Source: a bacterium
GTDB lineage: Bacteria; JAJVIF01; JAGGVT01
Direction of reading: 5' to 3'
Assembly: GCA_021157815.1 (NCBI GenBank)
Contig: JAGGVT010000213.1
Location: 1-6,823, forward strand
Length of the DNA: 6,823 nucleotides
Shown: positions 1 to 4,150 of the stretch, piece after piece
Layout: each line of letters starts with the position of its first letter
How positions within the stretch are numbered: the first letter of the stretch is position 1
Position numbers and translations under genes: made by a program
The notes under the pieces: model-generated
The model's database searches: none
Told to the model about the DNA's origin: nothing
The model's input: only the letters and a program-made list of their open reading frames with translations

Positions 1-2144
1 AGTTTAGTTTCATGCCGGCGGAAATTCTCGGCAACGTTTACGAGCAGTTTCTGGGTAAAGTGATACGGTTGACGAAAGGGCATCAGGCGAAAGTCGAGGA
101 GAAACCGGAGGTCAGGAAGGCTGGCGGCGTATATTACACTCCCGCGTACATTGTCGATTACATCGTGGAAAACACAGTCGGGAAATTATGCGGCGGCAAA
201 AAGCCGAAGGACATTGCAAAACTCAAAATACTCGATCCGGCATGCGGTTCGGGTTCATTCCTGCTGGGAGCGTTCCAGTACCTGCTCGATTATCACCTTA
301 AATACTACACCGATGAAATGGATAAAACCGGAAAAGTACCCAAGCCTCCATCGCAGACCGGAAAGGGGAAAAAGAAGCGGGACAGGCAGGCGATTTACCA
401 GGGGCAGGACGGCGGTTGGTATCTTACCACTACTGAAAAGAAACGAATTCTGTTGAATAACATCTACGGCGTCGATATCGATTCGCAGGCGGTCGAGGTT
501 ACCAAACTGTCCCTCCTGCTGAAAGTTCTCGAAAATGAGAACAAGGACACGCTTCACCAGCAAATGTTTCTAATCAAGGAACGCGCCCTCCCTGATTTAA
601 GCGACAACGTCAAATGCGGCAACTCGCTGATCGCCTCCGATTTCTACACCCAGTCGGAGCAAACGCTCATGTTCGATGACGAGGAACAGTATCGCATCAA
701 CGCCTTCGACTGGGACGTCGAGTTCCCGGATATCATGAAGGGGCGCAACCCCGGGTTTGACGCGGTGATTGGCAATCCGCCGTATCGTAGGGAGCTGGAT
801 TATAAGCATCTAATGGATGAAATCGCAAAAACAAAGTTTGGACAAAAATATCGTGCTCCAAGAATGGACCTTTGGTATTACTTTATTCATCGTAGCCTGG
901 AATTGCTTAAAACTGGAGGCCAGCTCAGCTTTATTGTTAATGCTTATTGGGTAGCTGCCACAGGTTCAGAGAAGTTGATAAAAACACTAAGAGAAAAAGC
1001 ACAAATTGATGAGATTTTCTTTTTTAAAAAACTAAGGGTCTTTACGAATGTTTCTGGACAACATATGATTATTCGTATCACTAACAATAATGATAAAAAC
1101 ACCACACTTATAAAATTGGTTGAACCAACCTCTGAAATAAGCGCAGAGCCTTTCGTTACTGGAAACTCATCAGTTAATGAATTTATGAAAGCTCACGATC
1201 AATTGTTTACTGAAAACAAGGTTGATCTTGAACCACCTGCAGGGGAATTACTTTCCAAGATTGGCAAATGGCCCATTCTTAATTTGCTCGGTAAAGTACG
1301 ACAAGGGATCGCAGAAAATCCTTCTGTTATTAACAGAAAGACTAATGAGAAGTTTGGCAATATTTGGGAGATTGGAGAAGGAGTATTTACAATACGACCA
1401 GAGAATGTGAAAAAACTTAATCTCAGTAAAACTGAGAAAAAACTTCTTCGAGCTTATCATGATTTGTGTGATCTTGGTCGTTATCAAATCGCATCAAAAC
1501 CATCTTTTTTCATAATCTATTCAACTAGGTACACATGTCCCGATATAAATAGATATCCTAAAATCAGAGATCATCTCAAGCGTTTCAAGGTAATAATGAA
1601 TGCGAGAAGAGAGACCCAAAAGGGATCAAATAAATGGTGGCATCTACATTGGCCCAGAGATGAAGAAATTTGGAAATCTGCAAAAATCATGTCAATTCAA
1701 ATGGGAAAAAGACCAATGTTTGTTCCTTCGCTGAATCCTGTTTATGTTCCTTTCAGTGTCAATGTATTTTTGCCATATCAAGAGACGCGAGAACATATTC
1801 ATTATATAACAGGAGTATTAAATTCACGCCTGATATTCAAATGGTACCAACATTACGCAAAGCGTCGTGGTGTTGGTTTAGAAATTAACGGTAATGTCTT
1901 AAGCAAAACACCAATCCGCACAATCGACTTCACCGACCCCGCTGACAAAGCGCGCCACGACAAGATGGTCAAGCTGGTTTCTAATATGCTGACTCTCCAC
2001 AAGCGAATTCAGGAATCCAAGACACCGCACGAGCGTGAAATGATTCAGCGTCGGATTGTCGCGACAGATCGTCAGATAGATAATCTGGTCTATGAGCTTT
2101 ATGATTTGACTGATGAGGAGGTGGCGGTGGTCGAGGGGAGTTAA
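1..2144 (+). CDS. Type IIG (Eco57I-like) restriction enzyme / adenine-specific DNA methyltransferase, 5'-partial
   Basis: Probably methylates adenine in a specific DNA site and, if an N-terminal nuclease domain exists upstream, also cuts. The frame is open to the left edge: codons before the ATG at 12 read F-S-F and run into PAEILGNVYEQFLG, normally an internal segment of this family, so that ATG is unlikely to be the start. Counting from it, motifs are: YYTP (41-44), motif I DPACGSG (75-81), the GVDID acidic motif (153-157), the conserved KCGNSLI stretch (201-207) and catalytic motif IV NPPY (255-258). A TaqI/Eco57I-type target-recognition region follows (about 400-635; NKWWHLHWPR, LNSRLIFKWY). 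A helical tail ends in ELYDLTDEEV, also typical. The 3' end is intact. DNA at about 795-1905 is much more AT-rich than the rest of the gene, suggesting domain exchange. A methylase-only enzyme remains possible because the nuclease part is not visible. Confidence 0.93.
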   Translation, partial: FSFMPAEILGNVYEQFLGKVIRLTKGHQAKVEEKPEVRKAGGVYYTPAYIVDYIVENTVGKLCGGKKPKDIAKLKILDPACGSGSFLLGAFQYLLDYHLKYYTDEMDKTGKVPKPPSQTGKGKKKRDRQAIYQGQDGGWYLTTTEKKRILLNNIYGVDIDSQAVEVTKLSLLLKVLENENKDTLHQQMFLIKERALPDLSDNVKCGNSLIASDFYTQSEQTLMFDDEEQYRINAFDWDVEFPDIMKGRNPGFDAVIGNPPYRRELDYKHLMDEIAKTKFGQKYRAPRMDLWYYFIHRSLELLKTGGQLSFIVNAYWVAATGSEKLIKTLREKAQIDEIFFFKKLRVFTNVSGQHMIIRITNNNDKNTTLIKLVEPTSEISAEPFVTGNSSVNEFMKAHDQLFTENKVDLEPPAGELLSKIGKWPILNLLGKVRQGIAENPSVINRKTNEKFGNIWEIGEGVFTIRPENVKKLNLSKTEKKLLRAYHDLCDLGRYQIASKPSFFIIYSTRYTCPDINRYPKIRDHLKRFKVIMNARRETQKGSNKWWHLHWPRDEEIWKSAKIMSIQMGKRPMFVPSLNPVYVPFSVNVFLPYQETREHIHYITGVLNSRLIFKWYQHYAKRRGVGLEINGNVLSKTPIRTIDFTDPADKARHDKMVKLVSNMLTLHKRIQESKTPHEREMIQRRIVATDRQIDNLVYELYDLTDEEVAVVEGS

Positions 2145-2214: not shown

Positions 2215-2871
2215 ATGAATAGTTCAGAGGATTTACGAATAATAAGATTTATTGATGGATTTCACTACTCATTTGAAATTCTTGATTATGCTTATTTGTC
2301 TCTACATGACACATGTTGCTTAATAGGAGAAGATAATAGTAATCTAATCCCTGCTTTGGCAAAGTGCTGGACTTTTATTGATTCTGTTCATCGAATAAGA
2401 GCATTAGCAGATTCTGTGCCAGGACTGAGTAAACGTGATAAGAATTATCGTCAATTTTATAATGAAACTAAACCTGCTAAAGACTTTCGAAATTACATTC
2501 AGCATTTGCGCACAGAATTATCAAAAAAAACAATAAATCCTTTTCCAGTTTGGGGTTCATTGGCGTGGGTTAATAAAGACGATTCATCTCTAAGTCACAT
2601 TGTCATATATGGGGGACAGATCGAAAATCAAAAATATTCTGGTTGTGTTTTTGATATGGAAAAACAGGACTGGGTTAGCAAAGTTAGTCTTGTAATAAAA
2701 GACCTATCCATTCATTTTGATCCAGTTTATAAAGACTGTATCACTTTCAAAAACTTCATAATTCCCTGGCTAGATAATCACTATAAACAAGATATAAAAC
2801 GCATTAGCGGTTTGAAAATTATCGATGTTAAGATGTTACCCATGGGGAACCCGGTTACGCGTCGCGACTGA
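2215..2871 (+). CDS. Hypothetical protein with HEPN-like R-x4-H motif (218 aa)
   Basis: I do not recognise the family by name. The N-terminal half looks all-helical. It contains CWTFIDSVHRIR (51-62) and then KDFRNYIQHLRTEL (89-102). R92-N93-x3-H97 matches the R-x4-H catalytic signature of HEPN RNases, including the polar residue after Arg. The second half (about 108-218) alternates strands and loops (PVWGSLAWV, HIVIYGGQI) and is unassigned. There is no signal peptide or membrane segment, so it is probably cytoplasmic. It starts 70 nt after the restriction-methylase gene on the same strand and may be co-transcribed. It is AT-rich (16 of 60 GC at 2221-2280), like the recognition domain of that gene. 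The last residues (MGNPVTRRD) come from GC-rich DNA just before a repeat, so the original C-terminus may have been replaced. An RNase role is inference from one motif and context. Confidence 0.8.
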   Translation: MNSSEDLRIIRFIDGFHYSFEILDYAYLSLHDTCCLIGEDNSNLIPALAKCWTFIDSVHRIRALADSVPGLSKRDKNYRQFYNETKPAKDFRNYIQHLRTELSKKTINPFPVWGSLAWVNKDDSSLSHIVIYGGQIENQKYSGCVFDMEKQDWVSKVSLVIKDLSIHFDPVYKDCITFKNFIIPWLDNHYKQDIKRISGLKIIDVKMLPMGNPVTRRD

Positions 2872-2883
2872 TGTAAGTTGGGG

Positions 2884-3026
2884 AAAAAGGGGACGGGTGC
2901 ATTTATCGTGTCGATTAACATTGGCAATCCGCTGAAACAAATGCCAGGGATTCCGACCGTTCGACTGCGCTCAGATTCTATAGACGGGACGTTTATGACA
3001 CGGCCGATGAGACATCAGCGCTACGA
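2884..3026. repeat. Dispersed direct repeat, copy 1 (~143 bp)
   Basis: Aligns with 4009-4150 with 11 mismatches and one 1-nt gap (about 92% identity). It begins AAAAAGGGGAC and ends CAGCGCTACGA. Internal partly paired arms (ATAGACG/CGTTTAT, CGACCGT/ACGGCCG) are less perfect than in copy 2. An open frame crosses it (2878-3108, TTG start), but the sequence behaves as repeat DNA. Leading GGGGACA motifs remind me of repeats found near IS200-like (Y1, RAYT) transposases, but no transposase is present here. Confidence 0.9.
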
Positions 3027-3029
3027 AAG

Positions 3030-3065
3030 GGATTCCGACCATCCGCTGCGCGAATGTCGGAATGA
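3030..3065. repeat. REP-like imperfect palindrome
   Basis: ATTCCGAC (3032-3039) pairs perfectly with GTCGGAAT (3056-3063). Inside, CGC and GCG can extend the stem across a bulge and a mismatch, leaving a short TGC loop. Its opening, GGGATTCCGACC, repeats the sequence at 2947 within copy 1 of the long repeat. This unit is absent after copy 2. Confidence 0.65.
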
Positions 3066-3071
3066 CGTAAT

Positions 3072-3150
3072 ATGTAACCCGGTGTCCCTTCACCGGGGCT
3101 TTGCGTGAGATAGCCACCTGTTTCCCCGGCAAAGGGATGCCGGATTACAT
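3072..3150. repeat. Long inverted repeat made of two hairpins with complementary loops
   Basis: Left arm 3072-3098 and right arm 3124-3150 are inverted copies (22 of 27 positions match), separated by 25 nt. Each arm is itself a hairpin. CCCGGTG/CACCGGG closes a TCCCTT loop (3078-3097), and CCGGCA/TGCCGG closes an AAGGGA loop (3126-3143). The two loops are exactly complementary. It lies between convergent genes (ends at 2871 and 3190), so it could act as a transcription barrier, but there is no T-run typical of an intrinsic terminator. A REP/MITE-type element is the alternative. Confidence 0.75.
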
Positions 3151-3189: not shown

Positions 3190-3516
3190 CTAAGCCGGTT
3201 TTGAGATACGTTTGCTTTTTTCGGTTTGGTAGTCATCCCAGTGGAGTTCTTTTGTTACTTTGGGGGAGAGTCCATGCACCATGATTGAGAAACCGTTAGG
3301 TTCGGCGTAGTTTTCCTCCAGATCATCGACGAAATCCTCAAACCTTGCATACTCTTCATAGGGAATCCATAAAGCCTCAAAGATTTCCGTTTCATCGAAG
3401 TCCTCATCAGGGGAACCAGTACCGCACCAAATAACGACCGAATTCTCGAAATTGGCTTCAACCCTGTTAATTATCTCATTGATAAATTCATGTCTTTCAA
3501 TTTTACCGGATTCCAT
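3190..3516 (-). CDS. Small acidic protein, second gene of a coupled pair (108 aa)
   Basis: I do not recognise the family. The product is strongly acidic (about 26 Asp/Glu against 10 Lys/Arg) and looks alpha/beta. A helical start (HEFINEIINRVEANF) is followed by a hydrophobic strand and Gly-rich turn (VVIWCGTGSPDEDFDE), then EALWIPYEEYARFEDFVDDL and a GFSIMVHGL strand. No signal or membrane segment is seen. The ATG at 3516 starts one base after the stop of the upstream gene and has AAGGTGA 5 nt before it. An in-frame GTG at 3525 would give 111 aa and an 8-nt overlap, with AAAAGG 6 nt upstream; either start implies translational coupling. The Gly/Asp-rich turn loosely recalls a minimal nucleotidyltransferase, the usual partner of HEPN toxins, but the G-S...D-x-D pattern is not convincing. 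A partner or antidote role is inference. Confidence 0.8.
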   Translation of the reverse strand: MESGKIERHEFINEIINRVEANFENSVVIWCGTGSPDEDFDETEIFEALWIPYEEYARFEDFVDDLEENYAEPNGFSIMVHGLSPKVTKELHWDDYQTEKSKRISKPA

Positions 3517-3517
3517 G

Positions 3518-3946
3518 TTACTCACCTTGTACCTTTTGATTAATCAATTGGAACAGACCATCCGCATCGTTTTTAAGATGTTCAATCTGATGCTGTTCCA
3601 CAGGCGTTGGGCTGTAATCACCTAAAACTCTCAGTTTCCATGCTCGTTTCAACAATCTATCCACACTGACAGGATAATCCTGAATTGCCCTATTAGCCTG
3701 CCAATGCATTTCCGGGCGAGGCCACGTTCCAGGATTCGGATTGGGCCTGGCCATCCCGTTTCTATTTATCCTGTCAGGCACAATTACCTGTTTCTTTTCC
3801 AATAACGCATTAAATGCAAATCTAAGCGCGTAATAATATCTGGATGCCGCAACATTGAACATTTGCTCCGTTAAGGCAAGATCACTCATTTCTTTATTCT
3901 CAACACTTTTTTTCCAAAATGCATCTACTCGTTCATTTCTGTTCAT
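3518..3946 (-). CDS. HEPN-like helical protein, first gene of a coupled pair (142 aa)
   Basis: The product looks all-helical and resembles small HEPN proteins. NVAASRYYYALRFAFNALL (31-49) matches the usual 'N-A-SR-YYA-x-A' helix, and LRVLGDYSP (105-113) matches the later 'R-x3-DY' motif. A Pro/Asn-rich loop (about 58-78; ARPNPNPGTWPRP) separates the two parts and is unusual for the family. The strict R-x4-6-H active site is not obvious, so it could be a non-catalytic relative. Start: ATG at 3946 with AGGT 7 nt upstream. The stop at 3518 abuts or overlaps the next gene, indicating a two-gene operon. Upstream DNA to 4008 is very AT-rich and probably holds the promoter, though I see no clean -35/-10 pair. 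The operon lies between two direct repeats (2884 and 4009). HEPN assignment is from motif recognition; toxin or substrate-binding roles are both possible. Confidence 0.82.
   Translation of the reverse strand: MNRNERVDAFWKKSVENKEMSDLALTEQMFNVAASRYYYALRFAFNALLEKKQVIVPDRINRNGMARPNPNPGTWPRPEMHWQANRAIQDYPVSVDRLLKRAWKLRVLGDYSPTPVEQHQIEHLKNDADGLFQLINQKVQGE
3521..3528 (-). promoter_or_regulatory. Shine-Dalgarno inside the end of the upstream gene
   Basis: Read on the minus strand, AAGGTGAG lies just before the ATG at 3516 and contains the last sense codons of the HEPN-like gene. Ribosomes finishing that gene would sit on the start of the acidic partner gene. It also contains the competing GTG start at 3525. 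Confidence 0.5.
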
Positions 3947-4008: not shown

Positions 4009-4150
4009 AAAAAGGGGACAGGTTCATTTATCGTGTCGATTAATATTGGCGATCCGCTGAAACAAATGCGAGGGATTCCGGCCGTTCGTTGCGCTCATGT
4101 TCTATAGACGGGACGTCTATGACACGGCCGATGGGACATCAGCGCTACGA
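4009..4150. repeat. Dispersed direct repeat, copy 2 (~142 bp)
   Basis: Same orientation as copy 1 and about 92% identical. This copy keeps better symmetry. ATAGACG (4104-4110) and CGTCTAT (4114-4120) form a perfect stem around GGA, enclosed by a second perfect stem, CGGCCGT (4079-4085) with ACGGCCG (4124-4130). It ends 9 bp from the stop of the 3D-domain gene. The two copies bracket the 3190-3946 operon. Confidence 0.9.

Follow-up and report, generated by a model that had tools for sequence, protein, structure and literature searches.

A rare family of small HEPN-like proteins, probably ribonucleases, with one member encoded behind a type IIG restriction-methylase gene

HEPN RNA-cutting proteins frequently occur on mobile DNA and in defence islands. 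A gene for a small protein with an R-x4-H motif, lying behind a restriction-methylase gene, raises two questions: whether its product is a HEPN ribonuclease, and whether it acts as an effector that backs up restriction, as an earlier note made from the sequence alone had proposed. The window (the whole stretch of DNA that was analysed) is an entire 6823-bp contig from a 3.2-Mb draft genome, whose class is represented by four genomes in the collection searched. Its features considered here are as follows.

1..2144, + strand: type IIG restriction-methylase gene, 3' two thirds, with Eco57I, N6_Mtase and TaqI_C matches
2200-2206, + strand: Shine-Dalgarno sequence AAGGTGG, 8 nt before ATG 2215
2215..2871, + strand: HEPN-like protein gene, 218 aa, ATG start, member of an unnamed family
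2380..2394, + strand: D56-S-V-H-R60, acidic-x3-basic pair, both in 8 of 9 sequences, N and K in the ninth
2488..2505, + strand: R92-N-Y-I-Q-H97, predicted catalytic Rx4H, R and H in 8 of 9 sequences, A and N in the ninth
2554..2568, + strand: G114-x3-W118, family-specific signature, invariant in 9 of 9 sequences
3190-3525, - strand: acidic ORF, 111 aa, no known family, overlapping the next gene by 8 bp
3518-3946, - strand: HEPN-like gene, 142 aa, PF05168 match with E 0.0044 (below cut-off), R-V-L-G-D-Y

The start at ATG 2215 was favoured over an in-frame GTG at 2203 because AAGGTGG is situated 8 nt before the ATG. Translation of the ORF placed R92 (2488-2490), N93 and H97 (2503-2505), as well as the stretch HRIRALAD (residues 59-66), where the earlier note had them, and its count of 16 GC among the 60 nucleotides at 2221-2280 was also reproduced. 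As it had said, the gene follows the type IIG gene on the same strand; the gap is 70 bp, and no terminator-like site was found between the two genes. The AT-rich character that it had ascribed to both genes is common to gene 2215-2871 (34% GC) and the middle of the type IIG gene (36% in 780-1910), but not to the rest of the latter, which has 51% GC at both ends of its part in the window. This GC mosaic suggests a swapped recognition part in the type IIG gene.

The type IIG gene is truncated by the contig start, with 710 aa encoded from the first ATG inside the window. The end of another contig, C132, is exactly identical to window positions 1-127, within this gene, and these shared 127 bases suggest that the two contigs join here. 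The gene joined in this way would encode 1036 aa, and the PADLOC type IIG model matched the product end to end (1e-203); a nuclease-like motif, PDYCF...FFLETKK, was read by eye near its N-terminus. The assembly break thus falls within the type IIG gene, perhaps via strain variation. Genes read as dnaB, purD and RuvX-like are located upstream on C132, and a G5/3D-domain gene and a phosphoglycerate mutase gene downstream in the window, so the restriction/HEPN patch is flanked by housekeeping genes.

Searches of the 218-aa protein with Pfam, NCBIfam and PADLOC models gave no match, and no solved structure was found for it by sequence search. Rx4H occurs once in the protein. Since the same string appeared in 30% of shuffled copies (R[NDH]x3H in 6%), it is weak on its own and only its conservation carries weight. 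A first scan of the genome collection with the single sequence detected no homologue. Further searches yielded eight homologues, 16-36% identical to the 218-aa protein, from Bacteroidota and Gemmatimonadota: one on a Gemmatirosa plasmid (28.5% identity over 127 aa, E 4e-12), one in a Bacteroidetes MAG (35% identity across the whole length), one on a Tunicatimonas plasmid, and five in genomes G457, G968, G1033, G987 and G974, obtained via searches around the MAG. The family is rare, with hits in 3 of 395 genomes that were sampled across one phylum (one of the three being rejected) and in 5 of 341 genomes in one order. Matches in G365 (opposite strand of a luciferase-like gene) and G777 (within a miaB-like gene) were discarded, and a Klebsiella match (43 aa, E 0.5) was judged to be due to chance. 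In IMG/VR, one prophage relative only was found, identical to the G987 prophage; contig L025, found with Rx4H-motif patterns, is the same prophage as L022 and not an extra homologue.

The frequency of Rx4H in shuffles would be in keeping with a chance ORF whose motif has no meaning. This reading is refuted by the existence of the homologues, one of them similar over its whole length, together with the conserved motif and the good ribosome site, and is hardly credible.

In the nine-row alignment, whose homologues had been detected with profiles that included the conserved columns and whose MAG sequence had been detected by patterns containing D56 and R60, the most conserved columns besides the start Met were W52, G114 and W118 (invariant) and L30, D56, R60, R92 and H97 (kept in 8 of 9). 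The persistence of R92 and H97 on which the earlier note had made its reading depend was thus observed. The residue after R was N, D or H in 7 of the 8 sequences that keep R and H, and G in one. HEPN proteins have Rx4-6H, typically with a polar residue (N, D or H) after R, and in many families, not all, an upstream acidic residue is found in Ex3[KR] (PMC3710099). This second motif is matched by D56-x3-R60 of the present family, with D replacing E. In the protein from G974 (L023 7531-8346), all four polar residues were changed together (D to N, R to K, R to A and H to N) and W52, G114 and W118 were kept, suggesting that this protein, encoded beside an integrase-like gene, is likely an inactive form. 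The register of the motif in the G974 and prophage rows hinges on the multiple alignment; the prophage motif was out of register in a three-row alignment and in register with its three closer relatives. Retention of the polar set by 8 of 9 sequences that otherwise diverge strongly is what an active site would be expected to show.

A fold was modelled by AlphaFold from two sequences, the window protein and the MAG protein; a single-sequence model (pLDDT 37) was discarded, and the prophage sequence was dropped because MAFFT had set its motif out of register. The two-sequence model (pTM 0.61, pLDDT 59) is a moderately confident helical bundle made up of five main helices, of which helix 4 (residues 87-103) carries the motif; HEPN proteins are all-alpha, up-and-down bundles whose motif is in a late helix. 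Helices in residues 1-100 and 160-190 mostly had pLDDT 56-88, and residues 104-159 were below 50. HepT HEPN toxins (7ae9, 7ae8, 7ae6 and 7ae2) matched the model with Z 10.8-11.1 over 122-128 residues, values of a size common among helical bundles. With respect to the HEPN bundle for which the earlier note had proposed a structure prediction and search, a bundle with HepT matches was found, but unrelated four-helix bundles scored as high or higher (vinculin, catenin and designed bundles, Z 11-13), Foldseek gave no E below 0.4 and a BFVD search nothing significant, so the structure matches were not discriminating.

For this reason, profiles were compared, using nine ApeA HEPN domains from genomes and, as a control, the Hpt four-helix family. 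In hhalign, the family scored 31.2 against ApeA HEPN, with R92 and H97 aligned onto the R and H of ApeA, compared with 10.0 ± 1.4 for 150 column shuffles (maximum 14.8) and 14.5 for the reversed profile. Against Hpt it scored 23.9, elsewhere in the protein, compared with 11.0 ± 2.3 for shuffles. As the control also exceeded its own shuffles, specificity can be claimed only for the motif register and for a share of the ApeA excess, the rest being a generic helix pattern. The Pfam HEPN_Apea model touched two homologues at the motif, below cut-off (best 16.3 bits vs 24.4), and no family member reached the curated HEPN cut-offs of Pfam, NCBIfam or PADLOC.

Taken together, the R92/H97 and acidic-basic pairs in nine diverse sequences, the model and the ApeA alignment with the motif in register back the HEPN-like reading of the earlier note. 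The family very likely belongs to the HEPN superfamily, and it is likely, with somewhat less assurance, that it has RNase activity. One alternative is distinctly unlikely, namely a non-cutting protein of HEPN fold with an RNA-binding or regulatory role, or a helical family in which the motif arose by convergence. MtlR is a known non-catalytic HEPN protein (PMC3710099) and offers a precedent, the fold matches are generic, and one member lost all four polar residues while keeping the rest; the retention of the full set in all other, otherwise very divergent, sequences argues against it. What the conserved columns and profiles point to is a new, diverged HEPN family, named by none of the Pfam, NCBIfam or PADLOC models and probably an active RNase.

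Comparison with known HEPN proteins places this family as follows. With the ApeA HEPN domain (PF18739) it shares RN-x3-H in register, the helical pattern around the motif and the Pfam hits, below cut-off, that two members give precisely at the motif, but the window protein gives no Pfam match itself, is without the large N-terminal region seen in ApeA proteins, and continues beyond the motif into a G-x3-W region of its own. HepT (7ae8, 6m6u, 7bxo) has a helical bundle similar to the modelled one and the Rx4H pair (R102/H107 in 7ae8/7ae2), but carries a modified Y109 two residues after H, where the window protein has L98-R99 after H97. No MNT nucleotidyltransferase gene lies beside the window gene and none was recognised among the scanned or annotated homologue neighbours, and the class of HEPN/MNT toxins was rejected. 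The anticodon nucleases PrrC and RloC are likewise HEPN RNases adjoining restriction genes, with the same back-up idea (PMC3710099), but the window protein, with 218 aa, has no ABC ATPase match, and its neighbour is type IIG, not type Ic; PrrC, in which an ABC ATPase is fused to HEPN, was rejected as its class. The AbiU2, AbiF/D, Cthe_2314 and MAE_28990 families likewise comprise Rx4-6H proteins from defence or mobile settings (PMC3710099), but none of their profiles matched the window protein, whose kinship is placed at superfamily level only.

The neighbourhoods of the homologues bear on the second question. The Gemmatirosa gene is on a megaplasmid, adjoining an NYN-domain nuclease gene, and the Tunicatimonas gene is on a plasmid with nitrous-oxide reductase and related genes and a Tn3 transposase nearby; neighbours in the MAG had no assigned family. 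From readings of translations, which underlie the "-like" names here, the G457 gene adjoins a resolvase gene and has an integrase-like gene nearby, the G968 gene has a transposase-like gene 80 bp upstream, the G1033 gene has ribonucleotide reductase-like genes nearby, the G987 gene is among prophage structural genes (the same stretch as the IMG/VR contig), and the G974 gene is preceded at about 40 bp by an integrase-like gene and followed by a NUMOD4 gene. Two genes away from the G457 member, with the resolvase between, a small ORF with RNNVIH (L013 5100-5660, - strand) is possibly a second HEPN-like gene. In ten scanned neighbours, PADLOC detected the NYN nuclease (also as weak HEC-09), a homing endonuclease and a weak CARF match to the resolvase. 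Most homologues are thus on plasmids, in a prophage or beside recombinases. No conserved partner or antitoxin gene was found across the family loci, and a restriction-modification (R-M) gene was beside none of the homologues (0/8). Therefore, type IIG plus HEPN is not a conserved pairing; the recurring type IIG neighbourhood for which the earlier note had proposed a survey of homologues did not appear, and their link to defence genes was largely absent.

The converse survey covered eleven plasmid loci with type IIG-like homologues, ten of them annotated, a small and non-random sample whose members are not all independent because the plasmids of E. coli and Acinetobacter seem to carry one and the same system. 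HEPN-like genes unrelated to the present family were located downstream at 2 of the 10 annotated loci, the term resting on motif reading and, for Rhizobium, also on the annotated name: in Planktothrix, two genes downstream, a protein of 434 aa that has IRNLIVH close to the C-terminus, and in Rhizobium an Abi-family gene directly downstream with R-x6-H in LRSKLGDAH. The remaining annotated loci had no HEPN-like gene by annotation, and no recognised member of the window protein's family was found at any of the ten. On Microcystis plasmid p1 (L080 5084-6722), genes for a nucleotidyltransferase and a SLATT protein, which could be an effector pair, come after a type IIG homologue.

Links to R-M systems have been described for at least 16 HEPN clades, PrrC-PrrI being the model that has been tested, and the two HEPN-like genes at type IIG loci fit this picture of many HEPN clades beside R-M genes (PMC3710099). 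By analogy to PrrC, the type IIG enzyme could restrain the HEPN RNase, and a phage disabling restriction would then free it. The common strand, the short gap with no terminator-like site, the low GC common to the HEPN gene and the central section of the type IIG gene (which is probably concerned with recognition), the published clades and the Planktothrix and Rhizobium loci are in favour of such a two-line defence. Nevertheless, we regard it as unlikely, given that no homologue has an R-M neighbour, that none of the ten type IIG loci had a recognised family member, and that the coupling tested for PrrC-PrrI involves a three-subunit type Ic system rather than a single-chain type IIG enzyme. More improbable still is the fuller proposal that the new family gives a single-chain type IIG enzyme a second line of defence by RNase, in which the G-x3-W region of the HEPN protein acts as a built-in sensor or inhibitor instead of an antitoxin. 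Of the suggested effector that backs up restriction, then, the general idea stands as published for HEPN proteins in R-M loci (PMC3710099), but the specific pairing does not recur among the homologues. The adjacency to the type IIG gene is most readily understood as a clustering of defence genes; a functional coupling to restriction is possible.

On the other strand of the window, the ORFs within 3190-3946 form a candidate for a second two-gene module of the HEPN kind, in which no MNT match was obtained. No plasmid homologues of the 142-aa and 111-aa proteins were found. This module is flanked by two direct repeats of about 140 bp that are 93% identical (2884-3026 and 4009-4150). Pieces of 2878-3130 recur widely in the genome, with 55 matches in all.

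The explanation that we favour as fairly probable is that gene 2215-2871 encodes a small stand-alone HEPN endoribonuclease, a rare mobile cargo that is here in a defence patch, most plausibly as a growth-arresting effector or a solitary toxin. If the chemistry established for other HEPN enzymes applies, H97 and R92 would constitute a metal-independent active site together with N93 and probably D56/R60, and cutting of RNA would leave a 2',3'-cyclic phosphate. The protein would most likely be a dimer with the motifs at the interface. The family appears to be an uncommon accessory cargo that travels on plasmids, in prophages and with recombinase-linked elements; in the source genome it is found in a small defence patch amid housekeeping genes, behind the type IIG enzyme, and its likeliest role would be to arrest growth in response to phage or other mobile DNA, as a solitary toxin or an RNase effector. 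The data themselves show the homology, the conserved set of four polar residues and its combined loss in one relative, a modelled helical bundle and the mobile surroundings, whereas the RNase activity, the dimer, the target and the trigger are what we infer here. With no conserved antitoxin found, region 104-156, a part of low model confidence that contains the invariant G114 and W118, may speculatively hold a control or target-recognition element.

These results add to the HEPN RNases an unnamed, putative family, found in Bacteroidota, Gemmatimonadota and the little-sampled class of the window and missed by the family libraries searched. The addition to a well-known theme is modest, since the relatives do not adjoin a restriction enzyme; HEPN genes behind R-M genes have already been published. 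The member that has lost all four polar residues provides a natural control for the comparison of active and inactive forms. If the coupling to the type IIG enzyme is true, the PrrC idea would extend to single-chain restriction enzymes.
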